This document shows, in pieces, positions 8,551 through 29,183 of a stretch of DNA of 38,948 nt. The notes beneath the pieces are model-generated. The model made no database searches. It saw only the letters and a program-made list of their open reading frames with translations, and was not told the origin of the DNA. This stretch comes from Candidatus Wolfebacteria bacterium. GTDB lineage: Bacteria > Patescibacteriota > Minisyncoccia > Phycocordibacterales > Phycocordibacteraceae. The stretch is taken from NCBI GenBank assembly GCA_002400985.2, contig NVRX02000007.1:24175-63122 (forward strand), read 5' to 3'. Position numbers and translations under genes: made by a program. The first letter of the stretch is position 1. The number at the start of each line of letters is the position of its first letter.

Positions 8551-8811
8551 ATGTACATTGCACGACATAAAAAATTTGATAAACAGTTTAAAAAATTAAC
8601 TCTTGCACAGCAACAATCTTTCACTAAGAAACTTTCTCTTTTTATTAACAAGAAAAACTACGAATCACTTCGCATACACTCACTCTCAGGAAAATACAAT
8701 GGATGTATGAGCATGAATGTTACTGGAAATATTCGAGCAATTTTTGAAACTGTTGATACTGACACTATTTTCTTTATTGCAATTGGATCTCACAGCACCC
8801 TGTATCACTAA
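8551..8811 (+). CDS. YafQ/RelE-family mRNA interferase toxin
   Basis: MYIARHKKFDKQFKKL...LRIHSLSGKYNGCMSMNVTGNIRAIFETVDTDTIFFIAIGSHSTLYH; paired with upstream antitoxin. Confidence 0.8.
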   Translation: MYIARHKKFDKQFKKLTLAQQQSFTKKLSLFINKKNYESLRIHSLSGKYNGCMSMNVTGNIRAIFETVDTDTIFFIAIGSHSTLYH

Positions 8812-11800
8812 ACCGTCTCTGGTGTTGTTGTGGCAACCTCTTCAACAACAACCTCTGAGACAGTAACTATTCGTGATACTGAAGATTCATTCCCTGCAGT
8901 GTCTAGTACTGTGTACGTAAGCGTATATAGTCCTGCAGCACCAGTATCTACTGCCCCACCAACCACAATGTCCGCAGTAATGTCTCCATCAACATCATCT
9001 ATTGCTGTAGCACCCTCATCAATAAATGCATCTCCTACTGAAAGTGCAATTGCTGCGCTTCCTACCAAGCTTATTTCTGGAGCAACAGTATCTGTCTCTT
9101 CAACAACAGGAGGTGTTGTTGTTGCAACTGCAGGTGTGGTACTCGCTGTCTCTGCTGTTGACGTTAGTCCCACGCCTGACCCTACAACCACACTCCTGGT
9201 CTCTGTTACGAGGTTTCCTGCAGTGTCTAGTACTTTGTACGTAAGAATGTGTGACCCTACTGCTGATGTATCCAGAGGATTCGTCTCAGCTGCATACCCG
9301 TCTACAAATAGTGTGTATGAAAGGTTTTCATCCACATTGTCGGTAATAGAAACTCCAGGGTCTACAAACTCAGTTCCTGTAGCAATGTAGTATGGATTTG
9401 CTCCCAAGATAGTAATGACTGGGTTTTCTGTATCTACTACCCCACTCTCTGATGTAGGTTCTACATCTCTCTCCGTCTGAACAATGAAGTAATCAAAGGT
9501 CACGTCTACGGTTTGCACCTGGTCGAGCACCACACGGAAGCTCCCATTTGCTTTGTCAGTGATAAACCAACTTCCAACAACAGGAGATGTGAAGGTAATG
9601 AACACCTTCGCACTTGGCTTTATCTGGCTATTTTCTACATGTACCAATTTATTTCCAGAATAAATTGTTCCATTTCCTGCAGCTGCCTCCCCCGCACTGT
9701 CTTTCTGTGCGATAAGCTGTGTGAAGGCAAGTTTGTCGAACTGTGCGAACCCCTTTTCAATAAGCACTCCAAGTTCTGCAAAGGCACTCTTCAATGTGCT
9801 GGTGCTAAACACTCCTCCAGAACCTGCAATAACTCCAGATGCTTCAAGTGCTGCTATTCTCTCCTCAAGAGTTTCAAGCTGTATTGCAATCTGCTGTACT
9901 GATGCAAGGGTAAATGTCGCAAGCTTGTAGATATCTACACCCTTTCCAGATACTGAAAGTATTTCAGATGGTGCTTCCTCTGCAATAAGTCCAAGGCGCA
10001 ATGGGTTTGAATCACTCTCATAATTGTATCGATACTCTGCAATCTGTACTGCCTTCAATGTTTCAAGAATATCTTCCTTTCGAGCTTCGTCTAAGTATGT
10101 AATACCCTTCTTTGCTTCTCGTGTTGAAATATTTATAAAACTTGTAGCTGCAATATCTCCAAGTACGTGAAGCTTGTACTCAGGAGTACTTGTACCTATT
10201 CCAATGTTTCCAACACCATCAATGCTAAGAGCATCTCCAATCTCCTTTAGAGCAGCAAGAGCATATATTTGTGTTTGCAATCCATACTGTACTGTCTTGT
10301 ATCCATTTTCTGCCACACCTACAAGCTCAGGAAATACTGTCTCAATCTCTTGTGCAATAAATCCATACTGTGTTCCTGATCCATACTGTGTATCGATAAA
10401 CTCAAATGACACAGGATTTAAGTTCGCAATCGTAGCAAGTGCATTAGACACTGAAGCGACATTTGTCTTTAGGTTGATATCTGAAGCACAGGTTCCTGCC
10501 ACACAAGTACCTGCGTCTCGATACCCTCCTGCTACGGTATTAACATCCCCTCCACCAACTTCAAGCTTGTATGCGGGAGAAGTGTCTCCAACACCCACGT
10601 TTCCATTACCTAGAATAGTTAATCTTGCAGTAGCTCCAGTATAAAAAAGAAGTTGATCTGTATTTGCATCAATCTTTGTGTCACCCGCAGCAATGCTAGT
10701 TGTGTCAAATAGAATACGAGCTGCAGCAACGCCAGAACCTACAGTAAGAACATTCGCGCCAACTGCATTATAGACATCTAATATTGTACCTGGAGAAGTC
10801 GTCCCAACACCTACGTTTCCAGAGGCCTTAACTATAAAATTAGTATCCCCCGCATTTGCGTTTACAATGAAATCTTTTACATCAAAATCTATATCTTGCC
10901 AAGCAGTACCAGCATCAATTGATGCAATATACCCTGTAGTACCATCATGCCAAATACCAAGTCCTTCATGAGTTCCACTATTTATACTTGACCCAAGAAA
11001 GACTTCACTTACACCTTCTGTGCCAAACAAGGCATCTCCTGTTACCTCAAGAGGATGACTTGGACTCGCAGTACCAATACCTACGTTTCCAGAGCTATCG
11101 ATAACAAGCCTATCGGTGGTACCGATATAGGTATTATCAGAAATCTTAAAGCTGGTACCAACTGTACCAACAGCAAATGTGTTTGAACCAGAATCAAATG
11201 ATATCTGTGGATTTCCAGAGCTTGAGTTAATATTTATTGTCCCAGTACTCCCTACATCTCGTGTAAATGTAGCAAGATTTCCTCCAGATCCTCCTCCAGT
11301 AACACGGAGTCCTGTACCTGTAGCTGCATCGTCATTTATATCAAGGAGGTGTTCTGGAGTTGAAGTTCCTATACCCACGTTTCCAGTACTTCTGTTAATA
11401 GAAACTGCATCAGTGGTAACGTCTAAATTAACAATCCCGAAATTCAAAACATTATCCGTATCATCAAAGTACACCCTTGCGCCGTAAGCAGTATTACTTG
11501 GGTCAACAAACTTAATGCCTACCTCATTACCTCCACCAGACTTATTCAATGTAAGTAAATCTGACGGTGTTGTTGTACCAATACCTACGTTTCCTCCATT
11601 GAAATAACTATTACCTGCAGTGTTTAACCTAATAGTTTCTGATGCACTAGTGGTATAGAGTCGTAACCATGCATTCTCTGAGCCATCTGAAAATATAGCA
11701 CTTAATAATCCACCATCCGAAGCAAGTACTTGCGATATGTTTAGATTGCTTGCAGACGCTTTTACATCTAATTTTGATGCTGGAACATCAGTACCAATAC

Positions 11801-14800
11801 CTACGTTTCCAGAGGAAGTAATGTGCAGACGGTCTTGTGAGCCTGTTACCAGAGCAAGAGTATCGGAAGCAGGGAAATATAATCCATTATTGTGGTCTGA
11901 ACCATTTGCATATGCTACATCTCCAAGTGTTCCAGCTTTAGAACGAATACGACCAGTTCCTAAAATATTTCCAATAACATTAAGTGCTTCACTTGGACTC
12001 GCCGTACCAATACCTATGTTTCCATTATGGTCTATTCTTAATCGTTCTTGTACCGATGTGTCTGTGTTTGTTAATGTTGAAAATGATAAACCAAACTGAC
12101 TTCCTGTATTGATATTTACTGATGCAATTGTAGATACCACATCATTGATTGCTGGATTATTTGCATCCCCACTTGCTGAAAATGCTAACACTCCACCTAA
12201 TTCTTCTGCAGCAACAAATGCTTGTGTGTTATCAATCAATATTGTTCCTGGTGTAAGTCCTGTAGCACCAGCATCTGCGGTTATGCTGAGTATTTCACTT
12301 GGACTCGTAGTACCAATACCTACGTTTCCACTCTGGTCTATAGTAAGTCTTTCAACAGGGTTAGCATCGCTCTCTCTGTCAGCGGTAAAGAAACCTAGTC
12401 CTGCTCTGGCAAATCCTGAATTAACAAATTGATACGCTCTGATAGATGCTACATTTCCAGCACCTTGCCCAGATGCGTCACTTGAATAAAAATCGAGTTG
12501 CCCAAAGTTTGATGCAGGAGGAATGGTAGCAGCCAACCCTGTTGTCTCGAATGTAAGAATGTTGTTCGAGGTTGTAGATTTTAGCTCGAGTATAGATGAT
12601 GGAGCAGTTTCTCCGACACCTACGTTTCCAGTGTTGTCTATTGTCAAACGTGAAGTAGCACTACTTGTATAGAAGTTGAGCGTGTTAGCTGTACCGCCAG
12701 CAGTACTTCCTGAGTCAAACAATATCTTTGCATATTGTGTCGTTGGAGCCGCTGAGTCTGTAAAGAATAATCCAGACTCAGTTTCTGCAGTGTTGCTTAT
12801 TTCTATGTTGCTGGATGAACCATAGACTTCTAATGCCTCTCCTGGAGCTGTAGTACCAATACCAAAGTTTCCACCCTGCGCATTAAAATAGGTACTTCCA
12901 CCGCTTGAGCTTATTGATGTTTGTATTGTTGAGCCATTAGGTTCAAATAACACAATCTTATTTATACCTGTTGAACCACTATTGAGACCAAACCTATACT
13001 CCCCATTGCTTGTCCCATCTCCAGCTTTTGCTACAAAGTCTATAATTGCACCCCCTGTTGTACGTGTGTAGTTAATGTCGTACTCATCTGTTACCGTATG
13101 AACCACATTAGCCCCACTTCCTGTTAGCTTAAGGTCTGCAGTACCACTTGTTTTTGATAGTTCTAATAATGCTCCTGGCGTAGTAGTACCAATACCTACG
13201 TTTCCAGAACTAACTATAACCAACCTATCATTGGTATCAACAGCCGCACTATCAGAAATCTTAAAGGTAGAACCGCTTGTACCAACAGCAAATGTGTTTG
13301 CAGAAGAAGCAAATGTTATCTGTGGACTACCTCCACTTGAATTTATAGAGATACTCCCTGTAGAACCAACATCCCGCGTAAAGATAGCGAGAGGACCCCC
13401 TACCCCTCCACCAGTAACACGAAGCCCTGCACCTGTAGTTGCATCGTCATTTATATCAAGAAGATATTCTGGTGTAGTGGTGCCAATACCTACACTATCC
13501 GTAAGGGTCGTTGTATATACGTTTGTACCTCCATCAGTCCACCCTCCTGCAGTATTGGAGAATGATGCCCATGATCCTGCATTGTTTTTATACTCAATAG
13601 TTCCTCCATTGTCTCTAAATCCATACCCTGTTGTGCCTGTTGTATCAGCCCAGTTGATATAACTTGAAGCTGAGAGTCCAATGTTTCCTTCTACATCAAG
13701 CTTGTGGTTTGGAGTTGTGTCTCCAATTCCTACATTTCCAGAAGAGTCTATACGTATCCTCTCTCCTCCAGCGGTAAAGAACCCAAAACTGTCTGTTGAG
13801 TTTTCATAGTTAATTCGCCCTGATGTTGAGCTATCAGTATCTCCAAAAAAGATAACTGAACCATTGGTATTTCCAGCAAGGATAGATATTCCTGTTGCAC
13901 CTGCACTTTCAACAACAAGATCATCTGCAAAACTACTCGGAGCTATTGCTGCTCCACTCCATACATGTAGTTTGCCAGCAGGTGTAGAAGTACCGACACC
14001 TACATTTCCACTTCCCAAGATTGTAAGCTTAGGAGATCCTCCCGCAACACTTAAAGTTATTTTCTCATCACTAGCAGTGGCATTGTGTTCATACTTAATC
14101 GATCCTCTTGTTACGTCTGATTTAGTGAAAGTGATTACTGCAGCGCTTGTATCTCCAACCGTGTTGACTGTAAATCCTGTGGTAGTGCTTCCAGAAAAAC
14201 TACTGTCAATTTTGAATACGGTATTTCCAGAAGACTTTAGATGAAGGTTTGCTGCAGGACTCGCAGTACCAATACCTACGTTTCCAGAGGAGTCTATAAC
14301 AAGACGATTACTTGTATTATTTGTGCGGAAACTCAATGCATTCGTACTGTTGTCATATACAACAGCACCAATATCATCATCTGCAATATCTCCAAGCTGA
14401 AGAATGGATTGGTTTGTGGTACCAGAAATAATATCTACACGGGCATTTCCAGATGCACTATTTTGGAATACAGCGATAGTATTTGATGCATCTACAAGAG
14501 AGTTGCTTGTTCCACTTAGCAGAACGTTTAGTTTCGCGTTTGGCGTTGTAGTACCAATACCTACATTTCCGTCAGTATCTATTCTCAACCTCTCTACTTC
14601 GTTACTGCTAGAATCAGCAGTTGAAATTACAAAATCAAACCGACCTCCAAAAGTATCCCTTGCTAACAGTTTGATTGAACCTTTAATACCTGCTCCTGGC
14701 GCTGAACCATCAGCACCATAAAATTCTATACCACTTTGGACATCACCAACTACCCACGTTTTATTGGCTGTAGAAGCAAGTCGTAAAATTGTATTTTCGG

Positions 14801-17800
14801 TGTCACTAATCTCTAGTTTTTTCTGTGGACTCGTAGTACCAATACCTACGTTTCCTCCTGGTGTCCAAGATATAACATCAACATCAACTGTGTCAGATGA
14901 CCCACGAGCTCCTAGAGCCGCATAATCCCCAGTACTTGAACCCTTAAAATAAAACTTGCGACTTGCACCAGTGGTTGAAATACGTTCATTAACAAGGATA
15001 TCACCCTCTACATCTAACATCTCTGCAGGACTCGCAGTACCAATCCCCACCCTCCCTGCTGTAGCATCCACAAACAAAGCATTGCTACTTCCTGCTTCTC
15101 CTACCCTGAAGTCTCCATCTACATCTAGGAGGTATGTAGGTGTTGTTGTGCCAATACCTACGTTTCCAGCATTATCAATACGCACTCGTTCGGCAAGAGT
15201 AGTACCGTTATTAGTGTAAAAACTAAAACGAGTACGCGCGTTCGCATTTGTTCCAGCAGAAGTACTCCATGCTGCGTCAGACTCAACGCGTATTCTTGCC
15301 CCTATTGCTTCATCTCCTGCAGTAATATCAAGTCCTGCAAAATTAATATCTCCTAAAATTGTATCGATACTATTAAAAGCTGTATTTGGCCGTAACTTAA
15401 TATCAGGTGCTGTTGATGCTGCAACAAGCAATGGAGATGTTGGCGCAGTAGTTCCAATACCTATGTTTCCAGTTCCCAGAATGGTAAGTGTATTTACCGC
15501 AGTGCCTGCGGTACGAGCTCTAAACTGGAATGATGTACCTGTAGAGTCCCACCTACTATCAATATATGCTGTGCCACTTCCATTATTCTGATAAATATCA
15601 ATACCTACTGCGTCATCATATCTTCGCAAGAATAGTCCAGTATCCCCACTAGCATCAGTCTGCCCTTGGATAGTAAGCGAACGAGAGTCTGTATCTGCAC
15701 CCGCAAAAGTTGAAGGGTAAACAGTACCTGGAGAAGTAGTACCTACTCCTACGTTTCCAGAAGAATCTATTCTTATGCGTTCTGCTGCGTTTGAATAAAG
15801 AAGCAGAGCATCAATATTATGGTCGTATTCAATTCTTCCTTGTGCCTGAGCAGAAGAATCACCGAACCATATATTTCCTTTGCTGGTTGAACCAGACAGT
15901 ATGGTAATACCTCCATTGCCATTGTTATCAATAAGTAGCTCATCTGCATTTGCATGCGCAACAGTTCCTGTAGCTCCGTTAGAACCTTGAATACTAAGTT
16001 TCGCTCCAGGCGTAGTAGTACCAATACCTACGTTTCCTCCATCGAGAACCGTAAGTACCTCAGTTCCATTATCAAACAAGTTTAGAATATCTCCTGTAGA
16101 TGTCTGGTCTATACTCAATGCAGCAAGTGAAGAAGCTGCCGTAATGTGGAACGGATAGTTTATGTCTACCTCATTATTACTATTATCAAACTGCAGTGTG
16201 GCAAAAGCATTATTTGCCGTGTTGTACAAACGAAGTGCTCCTGCCCCCAACAATCCAAGGTTTCCATTTACGTCTAACTTATTAGATGGGGTTGAAGTGC
16301 CTATTCCTACGTTTCCTGAGGAGTCAATCGACATTCTAGTAGAATTACCTCCCGTCCTAAAATCTAGTCTGTCATTTGGGTGGTTATACAAAACAGCACC
16401 TCTAATGTTTCCACCCTCATCACCAAACAAGACCGCTCCTTCAGCAGAAGACGGCGTTAAGAAAGAAAGGAAGGCATTGCTGTTACTTTCTAAAGTAAGA
16501 ACCGAACCTGCAATAGGTGTAATTCCAGAAAAGCCGTCGGAAACGTGTAGTTTAGATTGTGGACTCGTAGTACCAATACCTACATTTCCTGAAGAATCAA
16601 CCGTTAAAATATCTCCATCATTTGCTGCCGCAGATGAGATATTCAAATAATCACCAGCTGTAGATTGTGCAATTTCTAGTGTTGCATCAGGCGTAGAATC
16701 ATTTAACCCAAATCGTGTCAAGAGTCCATATATATAGTTATCTCCATTACTGTCTTTTAGATTAATTCCACTCACTGAATCCGTAGACTCAACAATAAGT
16801 GGTGCATTACTTGCATTTACTATATGCAATGCATCTGTAGGGCTCGCCGTACCAATACCTACATTGTTTGTAGAGAAGTCATATACAAGTCCTGAGGTTT
16901 CAACTGCAAACCCTCCTGCAAATGTACTTGTTGCAGATGCATCTGTTGCGGTGAAGTATGGTGCTGATATTGATGAAGTTGCTGTAATGCTTGATGCGGT
17001 TAGTGTACCGTCAAAGTACCCATTGCCTGCTACAGACAGTTTAGAGAATGGAGATGTTGTGCCGATACCTACGTTTCCAACAAAAGTTGAATCTCCTGCC
17101 CCAGAAACAATTAGCTTCCCTAGTAGTGTTGCGTCCCCGCCAGTTGTGAGAGTTAGATTGTTAGCACCCCCACTTCGCAACACAAGTGAAGCGCCTGCGT
17201 ATTCAATACCTACTCTACCAAAGCCTGCTGTTAAGTCTGCAATAAGACTTCCTGAGACTGAACGCACATGTGCTGCACGGGATGAATCAGCATTTACATT
17301 GAGGAAACTATCTAGATTGTTACCACCCGTTGTAAATTGATATCGATTTGACACAAAATCATCTTGCAACACAGCGGCAATAGCGCTAGCGTTACCATTA
17401 ACTTCAAACTGTACTCCTGGAGCGATAGTACCAATACCAACCCTCCCTGCTGTAGCATCCACAAACAAAGCATTGCTACTTCCTGCTTCTCCTACCCTGA
17501 AGTCTCCATCTACATCTAGAAGATAGGCGGGAGATGTAGTACCTATACCTACGTTTCCTGAAGAATCTATTCTAAGAGCCTCACTGGCATTTGTTGTAAA
17601 TGCAAGACTGTTGTTTGAGTGAGAGTATACAATACTTCCAATATCGCTATCAGCAGAATCTCCGAATACAATACCTCCAGGCTGACTTGTTCCAGAAAGT
17701 ATGTTGATACCAGAGGATCCATTATCTTCAATAACAAGATTCTTGTAGTTTACATCTGCCGTTCCAACTGGTCCGTCAAATATATGCAGGTTTCCTTCGG

Positions 17801-20800
17801 GAGAAGTAGTACCAATACCTATAGAGCCTGCAATCAATGTTCCACTGATATCAGAAGCTGTGCCATTTCCTACAGCAATCTTAGCGGCACCAAGTCTAGA
17901 AATACCTGAATCTATAGAAAGCAAAGAGCCAGATGAAGAGAACCCAAATACACCACTGCTGGCACCTATAAACCGTGAAGAATTCACCGCAAACCTGTCT
18001 GTGCCCCCTGTTGTAAATGCAAATCTTCCTGCACCATAACTATGTATTCCCGTGTCTAATTCATCGTTGAACGTAATAGACGGTGCTCCTGCAGTACCTG
18101 CTGGCACTGTTAACTGTCCGCTTCCTATTGTTAGAACGCCCTGAGGACTCGTAGTACCAATACCTACATTTCCACTCGTAGCAAGATACAGAGAAGACGT
18201 TGCTGTTAATGTGTTTGTGCCGTTGTAATACGGGAATTGCCCTACTGTTCCTGTAATAGCGGTAATAGCTGATGTACCGTTTCCTTGGAGTAGTCCTGTG
18301 AGTGTTGTTGCTCCCGTACCTCCGTTTGCTACGGGGAGCGTACCGGTAACACCACTCGTAAGCGGAAGTCCTGTTGCATTGGTAAGCACAGCAGCAGACG
18401 GAGTGCCAAGGGCTGGAGTAGTAAATGAAGGAGATGTGCCAAATACCAGAGCTCCTGTTCCCGTCTCATCTGTAATAGAGCTTGCCAGTACAGAGGATGC
18501 TGCCGACACAGAGACATTTCCATTACTGTCTACAAACAAAGACCGTGAAGCGGTAAGTCCTGAAAGGTTTAAAGCTCCTGACACTGAAAGGTTTGTTGAA
18601 GTAGCGTTTGTTGTTGTTCCGTTTGTTGCAGTGAAGTCAGTAAATGAAAGCAGAGACGGAAGAGAAAGTGTTGGATTTCCTGAGACACCGTCTCCATTGG
18701 TTACAGTAATTTCATTTGCAGTACCTGTAATTGTTCGTTGTGCCCATGTATCAGAACCTGTTCGTACTGCAATGCCTGTACTTGCAAGCCCTTCGAGTGC
18801 CGCAAGATCATTTGCGAGTACAAATGTTGGATTTCCTGCTGTTCCGTTAGCATTTGAAATGGTAAGTCCTGCCGCAGGAGCGGTAAGGCTCCGTGCCACA
18901 ACTCCAGAGGCAGCATTTGATGAAAGAAGTCCTGTTAGTCCTGAAAACGTAACGTCACTTGATACTGCAAGATTTGTACTTGTTGCATTAGTTGTTGTGC
19001 CATTTGTTGCATCATAGCTTGCAAAAATTGCAGTACCAGAGAATGTTGGAGATGTTCCAAACACAAGCGCGCCCGTACCTGTCTCATCTGTAATAGAAGC
19101 GGCGAGCACTGATGAAGCCGCAGATACTGCTGCATTTCCTGAAGCATCAAGAAATAGTGCACGTGATGCAGTAAGCCCTGATAGGTTCAAAGTTCCAGAC
19201 ACCGCAAGATTTGTGCTTGTGGCATTTGTTGTTGTGGCATTTGTAAAGAATGCATTTGTTGCAGTAAACAGTGAGCCATCAAATAGAAGGTTTGCACTAT
19301 CTCTCACTAACCCACCTATAGTTACGTATGGAATACGTCCAGAAGTAAGAGAAGTGATAGTGAGGTCTGTGGTAGTAGCGTATGTACTTGTAAGCCGTGG
19401 AAATACTGATGTAATAGAAGTGCTAGTAGCGGTAAAGTACTCTGCAACAGTTTGTCCGACAACTGAAAGCTTTGCATATGGAGAAGTAGTACCAATACCT
19501 ATGTCTCCATTTGAGGTAATGGTCAATCGCGTACTCCCATTTGTTTCAAAAGAAAGATTATTTGAGTCATTTGTTCCGAGGATAGCTTCTTCGCCAAAAC
19601 TGTTTCCACCTTGCTGAAAAAATCCAGATGCGAGTGATGTTGTAGATACAGTAAGTACCCCATTGTCATTTATAAGACCGTTTCCAAGCAGTGAGATGAA
19701 GTAGTTCCCTGTACCAAGACCTAATGTTGAAGTGAACAATGAAGTACTTGTGGCGTTTGTGCTCGTACTGCTTGTAAAGACTGCATCTGTTGCAGTAAAT
19801 ACAGAACCATCAAAGAGAAGATTTGCATTGTCTACAACTAACCCCCCAGTACTCACATACGGAATACGTCCTGACGTAAGACTGCTTATTGCAAGATTAG
19901 TTGTTGTGGCATTTGTAGTAGTGGCATTCGTTGCAACAAGATTTGTAATTGTCGCAGTAACAGCGTCTAATATTGAGGTATAGAAATTAGTACTTGTAGC
20001 GTTTGTAGTAGAAGCGTTTGTGGCAAATAGGTTTGTGCTTGTTGCATTAGTCGCAACCAGGTTTGTAAGTGTTGAAGTCCCTGCAATAAGGATTTCTGTA
20101 TATAAGTTTGTTGAAGTCGCATTTGTTGTAGTACCTGATGTAAACACGGCTGTTGTTCCTGTAAGAGGTCCGGTAAGTGTTGTGGTTGCTGCATTCAAAG
20201 TACCAAAGGTACCAGTATCTGAAGTCACTTTAGTCCCCGAGAAGGTTGATCCTGTTATTTCAGTATTCCTAATTACACCCCCAAGATATTCTCCGTCTCT
20301 AATTATTGTTCCGGTAATATCTTCGATTTTATTTAGAAACTGGAACGTTTGAATGTTTTGAATGATTTGCGCACCATTTGATCCTGTTAGTTTTTCAAGC
20401 TCAACAGAAAGTGCTGCATGTAGCGAGGTAATACTTTGATCAACATATGACTTTGTTACGTCAGTACTTGAGAAGAAGTTTTGTGTGACGTTCCTTGTGG
20501 TAGCGACATACACTGGCTCATCTTCCTTAATAACAATATTGGTTTGAGCAGGCCCCGGGTTCACAAGCAGCACAGGATCACTCTTCCGTCCAAAAATACG
20601 ATCAAACACATTCTGCGCACCACCAACAATACTTCCTAGTACACCCGCTCGTGTATCCTGAGCAATATTAAAAATATCTTTTGTTTGCTCAGAAGTAGAT
20701 ACCGCAATCTGTGAGAGTGTTTCAGTAACCCTACCTCCAGCATTCCTTGGACTTGTTACTGTTACCTGCACAGCTGGAATAAAGACTCTTTCGGCAACGT

Positions 20801-22070
20801 ATATACCTCCTTGTTCAATTTTGCTAACAATAAAATCAACAGCTACATCCAAACCTTTATTTGCAACAGCAAGAGAATCTCCAGGAAGCTCAAATCGAGC
20901 ATACGCATACCCACCGCCAAACTGCTCTCCTGTAAACTCTATAGAATCTTTGTACAGACCCGTAAGTAAATGAGTACTTTCAACAAAGCCGTATATAAAC
21001 CTTACGTATGTGCCCATTATTGCTTGACCAAGCCTTGGAGACGTAACACGAGCAGATTTTCCAATACTTTTACCTGCACTTGGAATAACCTGAGCTGAAC
21101 TCAATATCACATCTCCTGTATTGAGCGTGAGTGCCGCAAAAGTATTTGCAACAGCAAGACTTGCGTCAACAAATGCATATACTATTTCTTCTTCTTTTTG
21201 AGGAATACTCTGAGCAAAAGAAACAAATGTTGTCACACCGCCTGTGTAAGAATTCATGACCATTCGACTTCCTACTTGAGCAATATTTCGTGCAGCAGGT
21301 GCATTAGAAAATGTTTTTTCTCCAAGGAAACTTGCAAGAGCAACATAAGTTTCAACAGAAGACTTTGCTGCAACAATACTATTTTTTCCAATAGATTTAT
21401 ATCCCCTCCAAAGATCTCCTACCTTTGGAAGTTTGATACTTCTATTCTGAACAGAGTATCTAACAGCACTCGTCTGCACTCCTTTGTATTCAAACCTTCC
21501 ACCAAAATCTTCTAAAGCTAAAAATCCTTCTTCAAAAATACTTGGTGCTTCTATACGTAGTTCTCTACTCTGTACATTTTGTGTAGCTACGTAGTTGCTG
21601 TGTGCAATCTCTGGGGTACGCACTGCTCGAGAGAAGTTTCTGTGAATACTTAGAGCTTGATCATTTATGGTGCTAACAATTCTTTCTGGAAGAGTTGCAA
21701 ATCCTGACGCATGCACCAATGAGTATCCTCCAAAAACAATTAATGTTGCCATAACAAAAGAAGCAGCTCCTTCGAATAAAATTCGATCAGCAAATGAAGT
21801 AAAGTGTTTCTTAACTTCAATTTTTGATTTTTGTACACTAGTATATTCTGTCTTTCGTTCTCTTGAGAGTGATTCTTTTTTAATTTCTTTAGAAGCTTCT
21901 CTTAAATCAAAGAAGGCAAGCAGCGCATCTTTTTCTACAGCCCATGTTCGTCCAATTCTTATTGCAGGGATCCTTCCTTGCCGAGCAAGCCTACTTACAT
22001 AATCAGAAGTTCGCCCTATTAAGAGCGAGGCTTCTTTTGTTGAAATGAATTTTTTATTGTCGGCAGACAT
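8808..22070 (-). CDS. Giant surface/adhesin-like protein (4420 aa): N-terminal excisionase-like HTH, TM segment, long repetitive stalk, tandem S74-like intramolecular chaperone domains, C-terminal Ig-like domains
   Basis: Single uninterrupted ORF. FISTKEASLLIGRTSDYVSRLARQGRIPAIRIGRTWAVEKDALLAFF (HTH); FEGAASFVMATLIVFGGYSLVHAS (TM); about 32 GNVGIGTTSP-like motifs; GTLPVANGGTGATTLTGLLQGNG phage-fibre-like motif; SDINLKTNV...YGFIAQEIETVFPELV (S74); DUF5011/HYR-like Ig repeats at the C-terminus. Confidence 0.9.
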   Translation of the reverse strand: MSADNKKFISTKEASLLIGRTSDYVSRLARQGRIPAIRIGRTWAVEKDALLAFFDLREASKEIKKESLSRERKTEYTSVQKSKIEVKKHFTSFADRILFEGAASFVMATLIVFGGYSLVHASGFATLPERIVSTINDQALSIHRNFSRAVRTPEIAHSNYVATQNVQSRELRIEAPSIFEEGFLALEDFGGRFEYKGVQTSAVRYSVQNRSIKLPKVGDLWRGYKSIGKNSIVAAKSSVETYVALASFLGEKTFSNAPAARNIAQVGSRMVMNSYTGGVTTFVSFAQSIPQKEEEIVYAFVDASLAVANTFAALTLNTGDVILSSAQVIPSAGKSIGKSARVTSPRLGQAIMGTYVRFIYGFVESTHLLTGLYKDSIEFTGEQFGGGYAYARFELPGDSLAVANKGLDVAVDFIVSKIEQGGIYVAERVFIPAVQVTVTSPRNAGGRVTETLSQIAVSTSEQTKDIFNIAQDTRAGVLGSIVGGAQNVFDRIFGRKSDPVLLVNPGPAQTNIVIKEDEPVYVATTRNVTQNFFSSTDVTKSYVDQSITSLHAALSVELEKLTGSNGAQIIQNIQTFQFLNKIEDITGTIIRDGEYLGGVIRNTEITGSTFSGTKVTSDTGTFGTLNAATTTLTGPLTGTTAVFTSGTTTNATSTNLYTEILIAGTSTLTNLVATNATSTNLFATNASTTNATSTNFYTSILDAVTATITNLVATNATTTNATTTNLAISSLTSGRIPYVSTGGLVVDNANLLFDGSVFTATDAVFTSSTSTNATSTSLFTSTLGLGTGNYFISLLGNGLINDNGVLTVSTTSLASGFFQQGGNSFGEEAILGTNDSNNLSFETNGSTRLTITSNGDIGIGTTSPYAKLSVVGQTVAEYFTATSTSITSVFPRLTSTYATTTDLTITSLTSGRIPYVTIGGLVRDSANLLFDGSLFTATNAFFTNATTTNATSTNLAVSGTLNLSGLTASRALFLDASGNAAVSAASSVLAASITDETGTGALVFGTSPTFSGTAIFASYDATNGTTTNATSTNLAVSSDVTFSGLTGLLSSNAASGVVARSLTAPAAGLTISNANGTAGNPTFVLANDLAALEGLASTGIAVRTGSDTWAQRTITGTANEITVTNGDGVSGNPTLSLPSLLSFTDFTATNGTTTNATSTNLSVSGALNLSGLTASRSLFVDSNGNVSVSAASSVLASSITDETGTGALVFGTSPSFTTPALGTPSAAVLTNATGLPLTSGVTGTLPVANGGTGATTLTGLLQGNGTSAITAITGTVGQFPYYNGTNTLTATSSLYLATSGNVGIGTTSPQGVLTIGSGQLTVPAGTAGAPSITFNDELDTGIHSYGAGRFAFTTGGTDRFAVNSSRFIGASSGVFGFSSSGSLLSIDSGISRLGAAKIAVGNGTASDISGTLIAGSIGIGTTSPEGNLHIFDGPVGTADVNYKNLVIEDNGSSGINILSGTSQPGGIVFGDSADSDIGSIVYSHSNNSLAFTTNASEALRIDSSGNVGIGTTSPAYLLDVDGDFRVGEAGSSNALFVDATAGRVGIGTIAPGVQFEVNGNASAIAAVLQDDFVSNRYQFTTGGNNLDSFLNVNADSSRAAHVRSVSGSLIADLTAGFGRVGIEYAGASLVLRSGGANNLTLTTGGDATLLGKLIVSGAGDSTFVGNVGIGTTSPFSKLSVAGNGYFDGTLTASSITATSSISAPYFTATDASATSTFAGGFAVETSGLVYDFSTNNVGIGTASPTDALHIVNASNAPLIVESTDSVSGINLKDSNGDNYIYGLLTRFGLNDSTPDATLEIAQSTAGDYLNISSAAANDGDILTVDSSGNVGIGTTSPQSKLHVSDGFSGITPIAGSVLTLESNSNAFLSFLTPSSAEGAVLFGDEGGNIRGAVLYNHPNDRLDFRTGGNSTRMSIDSSGNVGIGTSTPSNKLDVNGNLGLLGAGALRLYNTANNAFATLQFDNSNNEVDINYPFHITAASSLAALSIDQTSTGDILNLFDNGTEVLTVLDGGNVGIGTTTPGAKLSIQGSNGATGTVAHANADELLIDNNGNGGITILSGSTSKGNIWFGDSSAQAQGRIEYDHNIDALLLYSNAAERIRIDSSGNVGVGTTSPGTVYPSTFAGADTDSRSLTIQGQTDASGDTGLFLRRYDDAVGIDIYQNNGSGTAYIDSRWDSTGTSFQFRARTAGTAVNTLTILGTGNIGIGTTAPTSPLLVAASTAPDIKLRPNTAFNSIDTILGDINFAGLDITAGDEAIGARIRVESDAAWSTSAGTNANARTRFSFYTNNGTTLAERVRIDNAGNVGIGTTTPTYLLDVDGDFRVGEAGSSNALFVDATAGRVGIGTASPAEMLDVEGDILVNERISTTGASRKFYFKGSSTGDYAALGARGSSDTVDVDVISWTPGGNVGIGTTSPQKKLEISDTENTILRLASTANKTWVVGDVQSGIEFYGADGSAPGAGIKGSIKLLARDTFGGRFDFVISTADSSSNEVERLRIDTDGNVGIGTTTPNAKLNVLLSGTSNSLVDASNTIAVFQNSASGNARVDIISGTTNQSILQLGDIADDDIGAVVYDNSTNALSFRTNNTSNRLVIDSSGNVGIGTASPAANLHLKSSGNTVFKIDSSFSGSTTTGFTVNTVGDTSAAVITFTKSDVTRGSIKYEHNATASDEKITLSVAGGSPKLTILGSGNVGVGTSTPAGKLHVWSGAAIAPSSFADDLVVESAGATGISILAGNTNGSVIFFGDTDSSTSGRINYENSTDSFGFFTAGGERIRIDSSGNVGIGDTTPNHKLDVEGNIGLSASSYINWADTTGTTGYGFRDNGGTIEYKNNAGSWASFSNTAGGWTDGGTNVYTTTLTDSVGIGTTTPEYLLDINDDATTGAGLRVTGGGVGGPLAIFTRDVGSTGSISINSSGGSPQITFASSANTFAVGTSGSTFKISDSAAVDTNDRLVIVSSGNVGIGTTTPGALLELSKTSGTADLKLTGSGANVVHTVTDEYDINYTRTTGGAIIDFVAKAGDGTSNGEYRFGLNSGSTGINKIVLFEPNGSTIQTSISSSGGSTYFNAQGGNFGIGTTAPGEALEVYGSSSNIEISNTAETESGLFFTDSAAPTTQYAKILFDSGSTAGGTANTLNFYTSSATSRLTIDNTGNVGVGETAPSSILELKSTTSNNILTFETTGLAATIPPASNFGQLDFYSSDASGQGAGNVASIRAYQFVNSGFARAGLGFFTADRESDANPVERLTIDQSGNVGIGTTSPSEILSITADAGATGLTPGTILIDNTQAFVAAEELGGVLAFSASGDANNPAINDVVSTIASVNINTGSQFGLSFSTLTNTDTSVQERLRIDHNGNIGIGTASPSEALNVIGNILGTGRIRSKAGTLGDVAYANGSDHNNGLYFPASDTLALVTGSQDRLHITSSGNVGIGTDVPASKLDVKASASNLNISQVLASDGGLLSAIFSDGSENAWLRLYTTSASETIRLNTAGNSYFNGGNVGIGTTTPSDLLTLNKSGGGNEVGIKFVDPSNTAYGARVYFDDTDNVLNFGIVNLDVTTDAVSINRSTGNVGIGTSTPEHLLDINDDAATGTGLRVTGGGSGGNLATFTRDVGSTGTININSSSGNPQISFDSGSNTFAVGTVGTSFKISDNTYIGTTDRLVIDSSGNVGIGTASPSHPLEVTGDALFGTEGVSEVFLGSSINSGTHEGLGIWHDGTTGYIASIDAGTAWQDIDFDVKDFIVNANAGDTNFIVKASGNVGVGTTSPGTILDVYNAVGANVLTVGSGVAAARILFDTTSIAAGDTKIDANTDQLLFYTGATARLTILGNGNVGVGDTSPAYKLEVGGGDVNTVAGGYRDAGTCVAGTCASDINLKTNVASVSNALATIANLNPVSFEFIDTQYGSGTQYGFIAQEIETVFPELVGVAENGYKTVQYGLQTQIYALAALKEIGDALSIDGVGNIGIGTSTPEYKLHVLGDIAATSFINISTREAKKGITYLDEARKEDILETLKAVQIAEYRYNYESDSNPLRLGLIAEEAPSEILSVSGKGVDIYKLATFTLASVQQIAIQLETLEERIAALEASGVIAGSGGVFSTSTLKSAFAELGVLIEKGFAQFDKLAFTQLIAQKDSAGEAAAGNGTIYSGNKLVHVENSQIKPSAKVFITFTSPVVGSWFITDKANGSFRVVLDQVQTVDVTFDYFIVQTERDVEPTSESGVVDTENPVITILGANPYYIATGTEFVDPGVSITDNVDENLSYTLFVDGYAAETNPLDTSAVGSHILTYKVLDTAGNLVTETRSVVVGSGVGLTSTAETASTTPAVATTTPPVVEETDTVAPEISLVGSAAIALSVGDAFIDEGATAIDDVDGDITADIVVGGAVDTGAAGLYTLTYTVLDTAGNESSVSRIVTVSEVVVEEVATTTPETV
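8850..9445 (-). other. Two tandem Ig-like (DUF5011/HYR-like) domains at the C-terminus of the giant protein (approximate limits)
   Basis: VVDTENPVITILGANPYYIATGTEFVDPGVSITDNVDENLS...SHILTYKVLDTAGNLVTETRSVVV and DTVAPEISLVGSAAIALSVGDAFIDEGATAIDDVDGDIT...LYTLTYTVLDTAGNESSVSRIVTV. Confidence 0.75.
9840..10127 (-). other. Second S74-like intramolecular chaperone domain (approximate limits)
   Basis: STREAKKGITYLDEARKEDILETLKAVQIAEYRYNYESDSNPLRLGLIAEEAPSEIL...ATFTLASVQQIAIQLETLEERIAALE. Confidence 0.65.
10220..10484 (-). other. First S74 (endosialidase/tailspike-type) intramolecular chaperone domain (approximate limits)
   Basis: SDINLKTNVASVSNALATIANLNPVSFEFIDTQYGSGTQYGFIAQEIETVFPELVGVAENGYKTVQYGLQTQIYALAALKEI; conserved SDxxLKxN start and GFIAQE motif. 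Confidence 0.8.
15049..15128. repeat. 80-bp exact direct repeat, copy 1 (within the giant CDS)
   Basis: accctccctgctgtagcatccacaaacaaagcattgctacttcctgcttctcctaccctgaagtctccatctacatctag, identical to 17440-17519. Confidence 0.9.
17440..17519. repeat. 80-bp exact direct repeat, copy 2 (within the giant CDS)
   Basis: Identical to 15049-15128; offset 2391 bp = 797 codons, so in frame. Confidence 0.9.
18560..20180 (-). repeat. N/T/S-rich low-complexity repeats (TTNATSTNL) within the giant CDS
   Basis: TTTNATSTNLYTEIL, ATNATSTNLFATNASTTNATSTNF, ATNATTTNATTTNLAI, NATTTNATSTNLAVSG. Confidence 0.85.
21705..21776 (-). other. Predicted single TM segment of the giant protein
   Basis: aa ~99-122: FEGAASFVMATLIVFGGYSLVHAS, preceded by a K/R-rich cytosolic-looking linker. 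Confidence 0.7.
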
Positions 22071-22155
22071 AGGTTCGTAAGGGCGATTTCCTTATTATTT
22101 TAGCAGTATTTTAGGGATAGTGCGTATACAACATGTGGATACTAATTACAGTAAA

Positions 22156-22171
22156 TACGTAGATTACGTAG
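22156..22171. repeat. Intergenic motif TACGTAG-ATT-ACGTAG (copy 1)
   Basis: tacgtagattacgtag; differs by one base from tacgtagtttacgtag at 29168-29183. Confidence 0.6.
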
Positions 22172-22274: not shown

Positions 22275-22716
22275 TTTACACAGATAAAGAGTCCTTAAGC
22301 CTTACCTTTCGACAGTAAAACTAATAGACTTAGCTAAAGCACCCTATTGCAATGATCTAATGCTTCAATTTTTATAGCGTTCGTTTTGCGACATAATAAT
22401 TCAAGACAGTACCTGCATACCTAATGTTTTAAACATAAAAATACACTTCTTTTATTGTGCACCCTTTCAGATAAGTCATAAGCATAAAATATTAACTCAT
22501 CCGAGATGCCTCTATACAAAGAATGTTTAATACAAAAATACTCAAGTTTATATACAAATAATATTGCCCTGAATGGCGCACATAAACCAACATTTACCGC
22601 AAAACTTACAAAATCCACAGATCTGACTGATACTATAAAAAAAACTTTGTACGAAGCATCTTCCAAAACCCTTATCTATAGGCAATCTCGCTTATCTCGT
22701 TTAGAATGTTTTCATT

Positions 22717-22743
22717 ATAATAGCCACATATAGTGGCTATTAT
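22717..22743. repeat. 11-bp perfect inverted repeat just 3' of the HTH-TM gene
   Basis: ATAATAGCCAC ATATA GTGGCTATTAT, flanked by outer arms TCGTTTA (22697-22703) / TAAACGA (22757-22763). Confidence 0.7.
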
Positions 22744-22768
22744 CGGCTATCTCGAGTAAACGAAATGC

Positions 22769-23545
22769 TTATTTTGACTCAAATCTTTGAATACCTAAAA
22801 CATAGTCTTCCACTCCTTGGTAAGCACCTGCAAGCGGTGTGTCATCACCTTTTGTAAGAACATACCCTGCTGTTACTGTAATTACTCCCACAAACATAAG
22901 TGCTCCTACTGCAGCTAGCGCAAGCCCTGTCCCCGACCAAGATCTCTGTACCGGCAAAGGACTTAGAATACTTTCTTCCGCAATAATCCCTATCTTTTCT
23001 TCTGTAACTTCTTCTTTAATTTCCTCTATAGGAGTAACTGCTTCTGACTCTGGCTCTGACTTCTTAATTATAGGAACCTCCTGTTCCACAGTAATAGGAA
23101 CAACTTCCCCTCTTTCCTCTTCACTTAAAAAGATTTCTTCCTCCTCAGCAGGAACGCTCTTCTGAGCCTTGTACCACTCCTGCCAAGCACCTTGCATTTC
23201 ATCCAAAGCAACAGGCTCGTCAACTTCTTTTTGTATAGAAACTTCTTCCTCTTTAGACTCAACAATTTTCTCTTCTTCTTCCACAGCTTCTCCCGCAACA
23301 CTAACTAATACTTCAAGTGCTGGAGAGTTCCTCTCTTCTTCATCTTTCTTGAGTAAAATTTTTGCTTCACCAAACTTATGTTTTGTAATTGACTCTTCAC
23401 TTATATACCAATTACGTCCAACAAGTTGAGCATCGATTTTCCCCTGCCGAGCGAGCTGCCCAACATAATCTGTAGTGTACCCAGTAATCTCTGCAGCACG
23501 TTTTGTTGCAAGATATGCCTTCCCGTTTAGTGTTAACTCTTTCAT
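22769..23545 (-). CDS. Membrane-tethered HTH protein (excisionase/MerR-like HTH, acidic linker, C-terminal TM)
   Basis: AYLATKRAAEITGYTTDYVGQLARQGKIDAQLVGRNWYISEESI (HTH), Glu-rich linker, GTGLALAAVGALMFVGVITVTAGYVLT (TM), short tail. Confidence 0.8.
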   Translation of the reverse strand: MKELTLNGKAYLATKRAAEITGYTTDYVGQLARQGKIDAQLVGRNWYISEESITKHKFGEAKILLKKDEEERNSPALEVLVSVAGEAVEEEEKIVESKEEEVSIQKEVDEPVALDEMQGAWQEWYKAQKSVPAEEEEIFLSEEERGEVVPITVEQEVPIIKKSEPESEAVTPIEEIKEEVTEEKIGIIAEESILSPLPVQRSWSGTGLALAAVGALMFVGVITVTAGYVLTKGDDTPLAGAYQGVEDYVLGIQRFESK

Positions 23546-23552
23546 TAGATAC

Positions 23553-23582
23553 AGTATAACCGAGACACATGTGTCTCGGCAA
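23553..23582 (-). promoter_or_regulatory. Putative promoter of the HTH-TM gene with a 20-bp perfect palindrome filling the spacer
   Basis: Minus strand: TTGCCG-N18-TATACT-7 nt-ATG; CCGAGACACATGTGTCTCGG palindrome at 23560-23579. Confidence 0.5.
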
Positions 23583-29031: not shown

Positions 29032-29167
29032 AGATTTGTATATAATTATTTACATATAAACTCGACCCCTTCCCTGCAGGAACTCACCTGCGTGTCCGTA
29101 CTTGTATTATCAAACATGAATAGGAAAACTCAGACATAAAATACAAAGTTTGGGGATAAGTATCATC

Positions 29168-29183
29168 TACGTAGTTTACGTAG
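29168..29183. repeat. Intergenic motif TACGTAG-TTT-ACGTAG (copy 2), inside a 9-bp hairpin
   Basis: ATCTACGTA GTT TACGTAGAT inverted repeat at 29165-29185; near-identical to 22156-22171. Confidence 0.6.

Follow-up and report, generated by a model that had tools for sequence, protein, structure and literature searches.

The window analyzed here (a 38,948-nucleotide stretch of a Candidatus Wolfebacteria bacterium genome) carries two neighboring minus-strand genes whose products begin with a winged helix-turn-helix (HTH) domain. The smaller gene (positions 22769 to 23545; identified from its open reading frame and domain matches) encodes a 258-amino-acid (aa) membrane-anchored protein, referred to here as the small protein. 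The larger gene (8808 to 22070; open reading frame and profile matches) encodes a 4420-aa fibre-like surface protein with an N-terminal HTH of its own, referred to here as the giant protein.

The original prediction of a 258-aa open reading frame with an HTH, an acidic linker, a C-terminal transmembrane helix (TM), and a short outer tail proved correct in all parts. In the small protein, an N-terminal winged HTH leads into a long acidic linker, which is followed by a single TM and an outer tail of 27 aa. The winged HTH (aa 10 to 57; 23375 to 23518, minus strand; delimited by AlphaFold, Foldseek, and invariant residues) has a pLDDT of about 95 in an AlphaFold model built from 32 sequences, and its recognition helix spans aa 25 to 35 (TDYVGQLARQG). 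Outside the HTH, a short helix, the TM, and an outer helix, the model is mostly unstructured. The part after the HTH is acidic (47 D/E versus 19 K/R), and the linker includes a conserved amphipathic helix (aa 112 to 129; 23159 to 23212, minus strand; AlphaFold and relatives) with the motif MQGAWQEWY, which recurs as [AST]W..[WL][FY] in 62 of 76 relatives. The TM (aa 205 to 231; 22853 to 22933, minus strand; AlphaFold, hydropathy, and relatives) is present in all 76 complete relatives, as is an outer tail with a median length of 27 aa (here 22772 to 22852, minus strand, with an AlphaFold helix at aa 237 to 250). Across these 76 proteins, K/R averages 4.8 in the 20 residues that precede the TM and 1.0 on its other side, a topology bias that, by the positive-inside rule, indicates an N-in/C-out orientation with the HTH inside the cell.

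The giant protein has its winged HTH at aa 8 to 53 (21912 to 22049, minus strand; above the TIGR01764 cutoff, pLDDT 91 to 94) and a TM at approximately aa 97 to 119 (21714 to 21782, minus strand; hydropathy and a low-confidence AlphaFold helix). Both proteins are thus ordered HTH (inside), TM, outside, and the inverted layout formerly ascribed to the small protein is not seen. What differs between giant and small is the length of the linker (approximately 45 versus 150 aa) and of the outer part (approximately 4300 versus 27 aa). Toward the C terminus of the giant protein, the fibre repeats end in S74 (endosialidase-chaperone-like) and Ig-like domains. One S74 stretch lies at the Pfam threshold, and the PHROGs match is to phage tail fibres; a second S74-like stretch is degenerate and was recognized by eye.

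Both HTHs are of the HTH_17/excisionase type and matched only HTH_17/excise-type families. The giant HTH scored above the cutoffs of PF12728 (E = 2e-7; 31.6 bits; cutoff, 27) and TIGR01764 (E = 1e-8; 35.4; cutoff, 28.8), and the small HTH scored below those of PF12728 (E = 0.0013; 19.4 bits) and the NCBIfam profile (19.1; cutoff, 28.8). When the 592-kb genome was searched with the small HTH, the sole match besides the query was the giant HTH (38% identity across 50 aa; E = 3.7e-10), so that the likeness is not due to chance; the HTH core said to be common to the two proteins was thereby confirmed, and by sequence the small HTH is a paralogue of the giant HTH. In Foldseek searches, the small protein matched Xis (4J2N), BldC (6AMA), RacA (5I44), and TraN (4P0Z) at probabilities of 0.98 to 0.99, with E values of 0.12 to 0.28 and TM scores by target length of 0.70 to 0.77, in keeping with the winged-HTH fold seen in Xis and BldC. 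With RdfS included, the range was 0.96 to 0.99, the E values being 0.04 to 0.3 for a query that is mostly disordered. A profile of the HTH had TraN as its sole sequence match in the PDB (E = 9e-5), and phmmer with the small HTH alone gave only chance matches there.

In lambda Xis, Glu19 makes the main base contact, one conformer has Arg23 touching bases as well, and Gly38-Arg39 of the wing insert in the minor groove (PMC7145599). In BldC, a guanine is read by Arg30, and Lys26 also contacts bases (PMC5859096). These residues (Xis Glu19, Arg23, and Gly38-Arg39; BldC Lys26 and Arg30) correspond in the alignment to Asp26, Gln30, and Gly43-Arg44 in the small protein, positions that are invariant or nearly so among 33 relatives. 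The Xis sequence used for the alignment was taken from a database, and the numbering of the BldC sequence agrees with PMC5859096. All 33 small-protein relatives have the same Asp, Tyr, Gly, Gln, Leu, and Arg in the recognition helix and the same Gly and Trp in the wing. At the key recognition-helix position, Gln occurs in 33 of 33 small proteins versus Arg or Lys in 33 of 37 giant proteins. Judged from these alignments, the two HTHs have a common scaffold and differ in a group-specific residue predicted to set specificity.

Orthologues of the small gene with 65% identity are found in two genomes (G001 and G002). The nearest relatives are UBA2103 and UBA3533, and most of the remaining named relatives are records of Kaiserbacteria, Parcubacteria, and Paceibacterota. 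The gene order in relatives is secA, obg, gatB, small, giant, with gatB directly ahead of the small gene in 79 of 80 named Patescibacteria loci. Synteny in relatives had been set beforehand as the test on which the proposed pairing could fail, and it is conserved: among 60 relative genomes, a second HTH gene lies behind the small gene in nearly every family member having either, and 65 of the 80 loci have a second HTH-TM gene downstream of the small gene in the same orientation (in 8 the contig ends first; 7 are without one). Four of these seven (L140, L168, L185, and L197) have a surface-type gene without an HTH at the position of the giant gene.

In the wider class, this HTH was found in 99 of 191 genomes, usually as a single copy; its reading frame is often between 500 and >6000 aa long, and the HTH often stands at the start of very long ones (up to 6621 aa). 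Some class members have tandem HTHs (examples across the class are G165:C1:3275, G140:C6:37182, and G144:C3:172011). In an HTH tree, which rests on a short domain and leaves many forks unsettled, the small copies cluster (98/90) with the single HTH genes found in other families and most giant copies stand apart. Such a grouping would be expected from duplication of a gene for an HTH-TM-surface protein with loss of the outer part from one of the two copies, a route by which the small gene probably descends from single genes of the kind present elsewhere in the class.

The small gene appears to be nearly leaderless, with a −10-like TATACT (23553 to 23558, minus strand) 7 bp before the ATG and a putative −35-like TTGCCG (23577 to 23582, minus strand). 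The 18-bp spacer between them contains most of a 20-bp perfect palindrome, CCGAGACACATGTGTCTCGG (23560 to 23579), a single-copy candidate operator whose CCGAGA class is conserved. In relatives, TATA[CA]T lies within 25 bp of the small start in 72 of 80 cases, with a CGAGA word just upstream of it. The word [AC]CGAGA occurs 68 times upstream of the small gene versus 7.4 in shuffled sequences (57 of 80 loci), and control noncoding DNA of the same loci gave 22 versus 15.6. Among 37 genomes searched, the full pattern CCGAGAYN6RTCTCGG is single in each of three genus members, each time at the small promoter. Its sole occurrence outside the genus (G041; L110) has no adjoining HTH gene and was taken as chance. 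In 20 further class members, CGAGAT was found upstream of the HTH gene 13 times (1.0 expected), in 8 of the 20.

Words of this type also occur past the small gene. In the window, CGAGAT words lie just 3′ of it (22749 to 22754, 22694 to 22699, and 22685 to 22690), around a putative terminator-like hairpin, ATAGCCAC-N5-GTGGCTAT (22720 to 22740). CGAGA or TCTCG occurs within 70 bp past the small stop codon in 57 of 65 loci, and TATCCGA is strongly enriched in the small-giant intergenic DNA (92 versus 5.1 shuffled; control DNA, 3 versus 1.8). The stretch just 3′ of the small gene often combines TATCCGA with CGAGACGAGA, a composite arrangement that may leave room for cross-talk between the small and giant proteins.

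The giant promoter carries different words. Most giant genes have AATTCGGATATCCGAC between the −10 element and the start, and the usual promoter order is TTATCCACA, CCGAAAT..TTATTATTTAGTTAATTCGGATATCCGAC, start. The word TCGGATATCCGA was found in 4 of 37 genomes, once each and always ahead of an HTH gene, one of these being in another family. With the operator counted as present at up to three mismatches, it accompanied 45 of 49 canonical giant HTHs versus 5 of 20 diverged or absent ones (Fisher p = 7e-8, ignoring kinship); four of those five cases have an HTH that is near-canonical by eye. The four giants without an HTH have no intact operator, one of them (L185) passing the loose three-mismatch threshold, and their small promoters retain a CGAGA-type word. 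The giant HTH and its candidate operator thus appear to be lost together. After correction for kinship, the six supported independent pairs (approximately 3 concordant, 0 discordant; median p, 0.25) point in a consistent direction, and the test is underpowered and not significant alone. The common giant operator is absent from the genus of the window (the two genus relatives have 4 mismatches), although the giant HTH there is helix-canonical. For this reason, the giant half of the model presented below is best supported in relatives rather than in the genus of the window.

The giant promoter of the window has two further elements, a GTATCCACA box of the TTATCCACA family (22134 to 22142, minus strand), which usually lies 68 to 79 bp before giant starts, and a genus-conserved TACGTA-N3-TACGTA element (22156 to 22170) in common with the secA-region promoter (29168 to 29182). 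The latter element occurs at two places per genus genome, one being the giant promoter and the other that of a histone-like, lysine-rich protein of 103 aa encoded just before secA. A third match in the window's genome lies in a duplicated contig end (G000:C3:1000-5500; L202) that repeats the secA-upstream region with its 103-aa and 611-aa genes and is probably an assembly overlap. The box TTATCC[AC]CA is the classic DnaA-box word. Its distances ahead of most giant starts (loci L119 to L198) cluster near 69 and 79 bp, values that differ by one helical turn, and secA is also preceded by it in many loci (second window copy, 29151 to 29159). In the window's genome, it further occurs before pilin-like gene clusters and is clustered between dnaA and dnaN. 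DnaA, or a factor that has this word in common with it, may be connected with surface and secretion genes. An HTH operator role for the box was rejected given its presence upstream of secA and pilin-like genes, and an oriC in the small-giant intergenic region was rejected given the three boxes between dnaA and dnaN on another contig.

The original prediction was that the two proteins form a regulator pair, as a heterodimer or as competitors for the same operator. The proposed pairing survives, since synteny with the giant gene is kept across the family; neither a heterodimer nor competition for one operator finds support. A heterodimer or a shared operator, at which the small protein would titrate or block the giant one, would fit the same HTH scaffold, the strict neighborhood of the genes, and the composite stretch 3′ of the small gene. 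We nevertheless consider it improbable, because the recognition residue is split between Gln and Arg/Lys by group, the two promoters carry different and mostly locus-specific words, and the giant-type word erodes along with the giant HTH, whereas the small-type word persists.

The conserved words could be bound by another factor. RodZ has a membrane-anchored HTH that binds protein, and on this precedent the HTHs here might be protein-binding modules, with the words serving another transcription factor. The positions that contact DNA in Xis and BldC are, however, among the most conserved, the clearest of the words are confined to a single copy at this locus, and loss of the operator tracks loss of the HTH, all of which make such an arrangement quite unlikely. 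Slightly less remote, though still unlikely, is a role in tethering the chromosome to the membrane, by analogy with RacA, which holds origin regions at the cell pole: the HTHs would anchor this locus, or the gene whose giant product is being synthesized, to the membrane near Sec, with regulation being secondary. RacA is among the best fold matches, secA is three genes away and has a promoter element in common with the giant gene, and the sites are cis to the HTH genes, at their own promoters. Yet these sites overlap −10/−35 elements, as those of regulators do, and are single or few rather than arrayed, and oriC is elsewhere, between dnaA and dnaN.

We therefore favor, at a probability of roughly 60%, a model in which the two proteins are membrane-tethered autoregulators with separate candidate operators, forming linked feedback loops that meter the fibre. 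The small protein's cytoplasmic BldC/Xis/TraN-like winged HTH would bind CCGAGA half-sites that overlap its own promoter between −35 and −10, most likely controlling its own gene, and the CCGAGA-type words past its stop codon suggest that it possibly acts on the downstream giant gene too. In most relatives, the giant HTH would act on its own operator, where binding should repress, given the location between −10 and start. Both proteins, being membrane anchored, could report on membrane-inserted protein, with the state of the membrane or of the fibre as the presumed signal, and the two linked loops would set the amount of surface fibre. A broader scenario, which we put forward tentatively and at slightly less than even odds, is that the Paceibacteria-type giant fibre is its own membrane-tethered regulator, with its N terminus on its own promoter; that in the Kaiserbacteria-like family a duplicate lost the fibre and became a dedicated membrane regulator with different operators; and that fibre number, or host contact transmitted by the fibre, feeds back on transcription.

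Membrane-bound one-component regulators and cytosolic regulators beside adhesin genes are already known. Among the open-access papers searched, we found none on HTH-bearing adhesins or on an HTH-bearing giant protein or fibre in Patescibacteria, nor a precedent for a fibre that has its own candidate operator-binding domain and is conserved with its twin in at least 65 loci. If correct, the model would offer a testable route to how the mostly uncultured Patescibacteria control their largest surface protein, and the predicted operators could be used in Escherichia coli tests without culturing the organism.

Among known systems, ToxR and CadC likewise have an N-terminal cytoplasmic winged HTH, a single TM with N-in topology, and a C-terminal outer part. 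Their winged HTH is of the OmpR/PhoB type, whereas the proteins described here gave no Trans_reg_C match and matched HTH_17/excise-type families only; moreover, the small protein lacks a periplasmic sensor domain, the outer part being 27 aa or, in its neighbor, the giant fibre. RacA has a related winged-HTH fold and links DNA to the cell pole, but it is a soluble coiled-coil protein that acts in chromosome anchoring. BldC, Xis, and RdfS (HTH_17) are alike in fold, recognition helix, and wing positions, and the BldC site AATTCGGTC (PMC5859096) is similar to the giant operator AATTCGGAT. The known members are, however, small, free proteins without a TM, and the BldC site consists of direct repeats, unlike the palindromic candidate site of the window's small gene. 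By analogy, the closest parallel is TraN/TraO of the conjugative plasmid pIP501, in which TraN, an Xis/MerR-like winged-HTH protein, controls its own gene and that of the putative surface adhesin TraO (PMC10877727). TraN is cytosolic with tandem winged HTHs, in contrast to the single winged HTH plus TM found here, TraO is not described with an HTH (PMC10877727), whereas both proteins here carry an HTH and a membrane anchor, and the pIP501 pair lies on a plasmid. In both systems, the gene of a regulator (here, a putative one) adjoins that of a surface protein and has a site (here, a candidate by sequence) in its own promoter.
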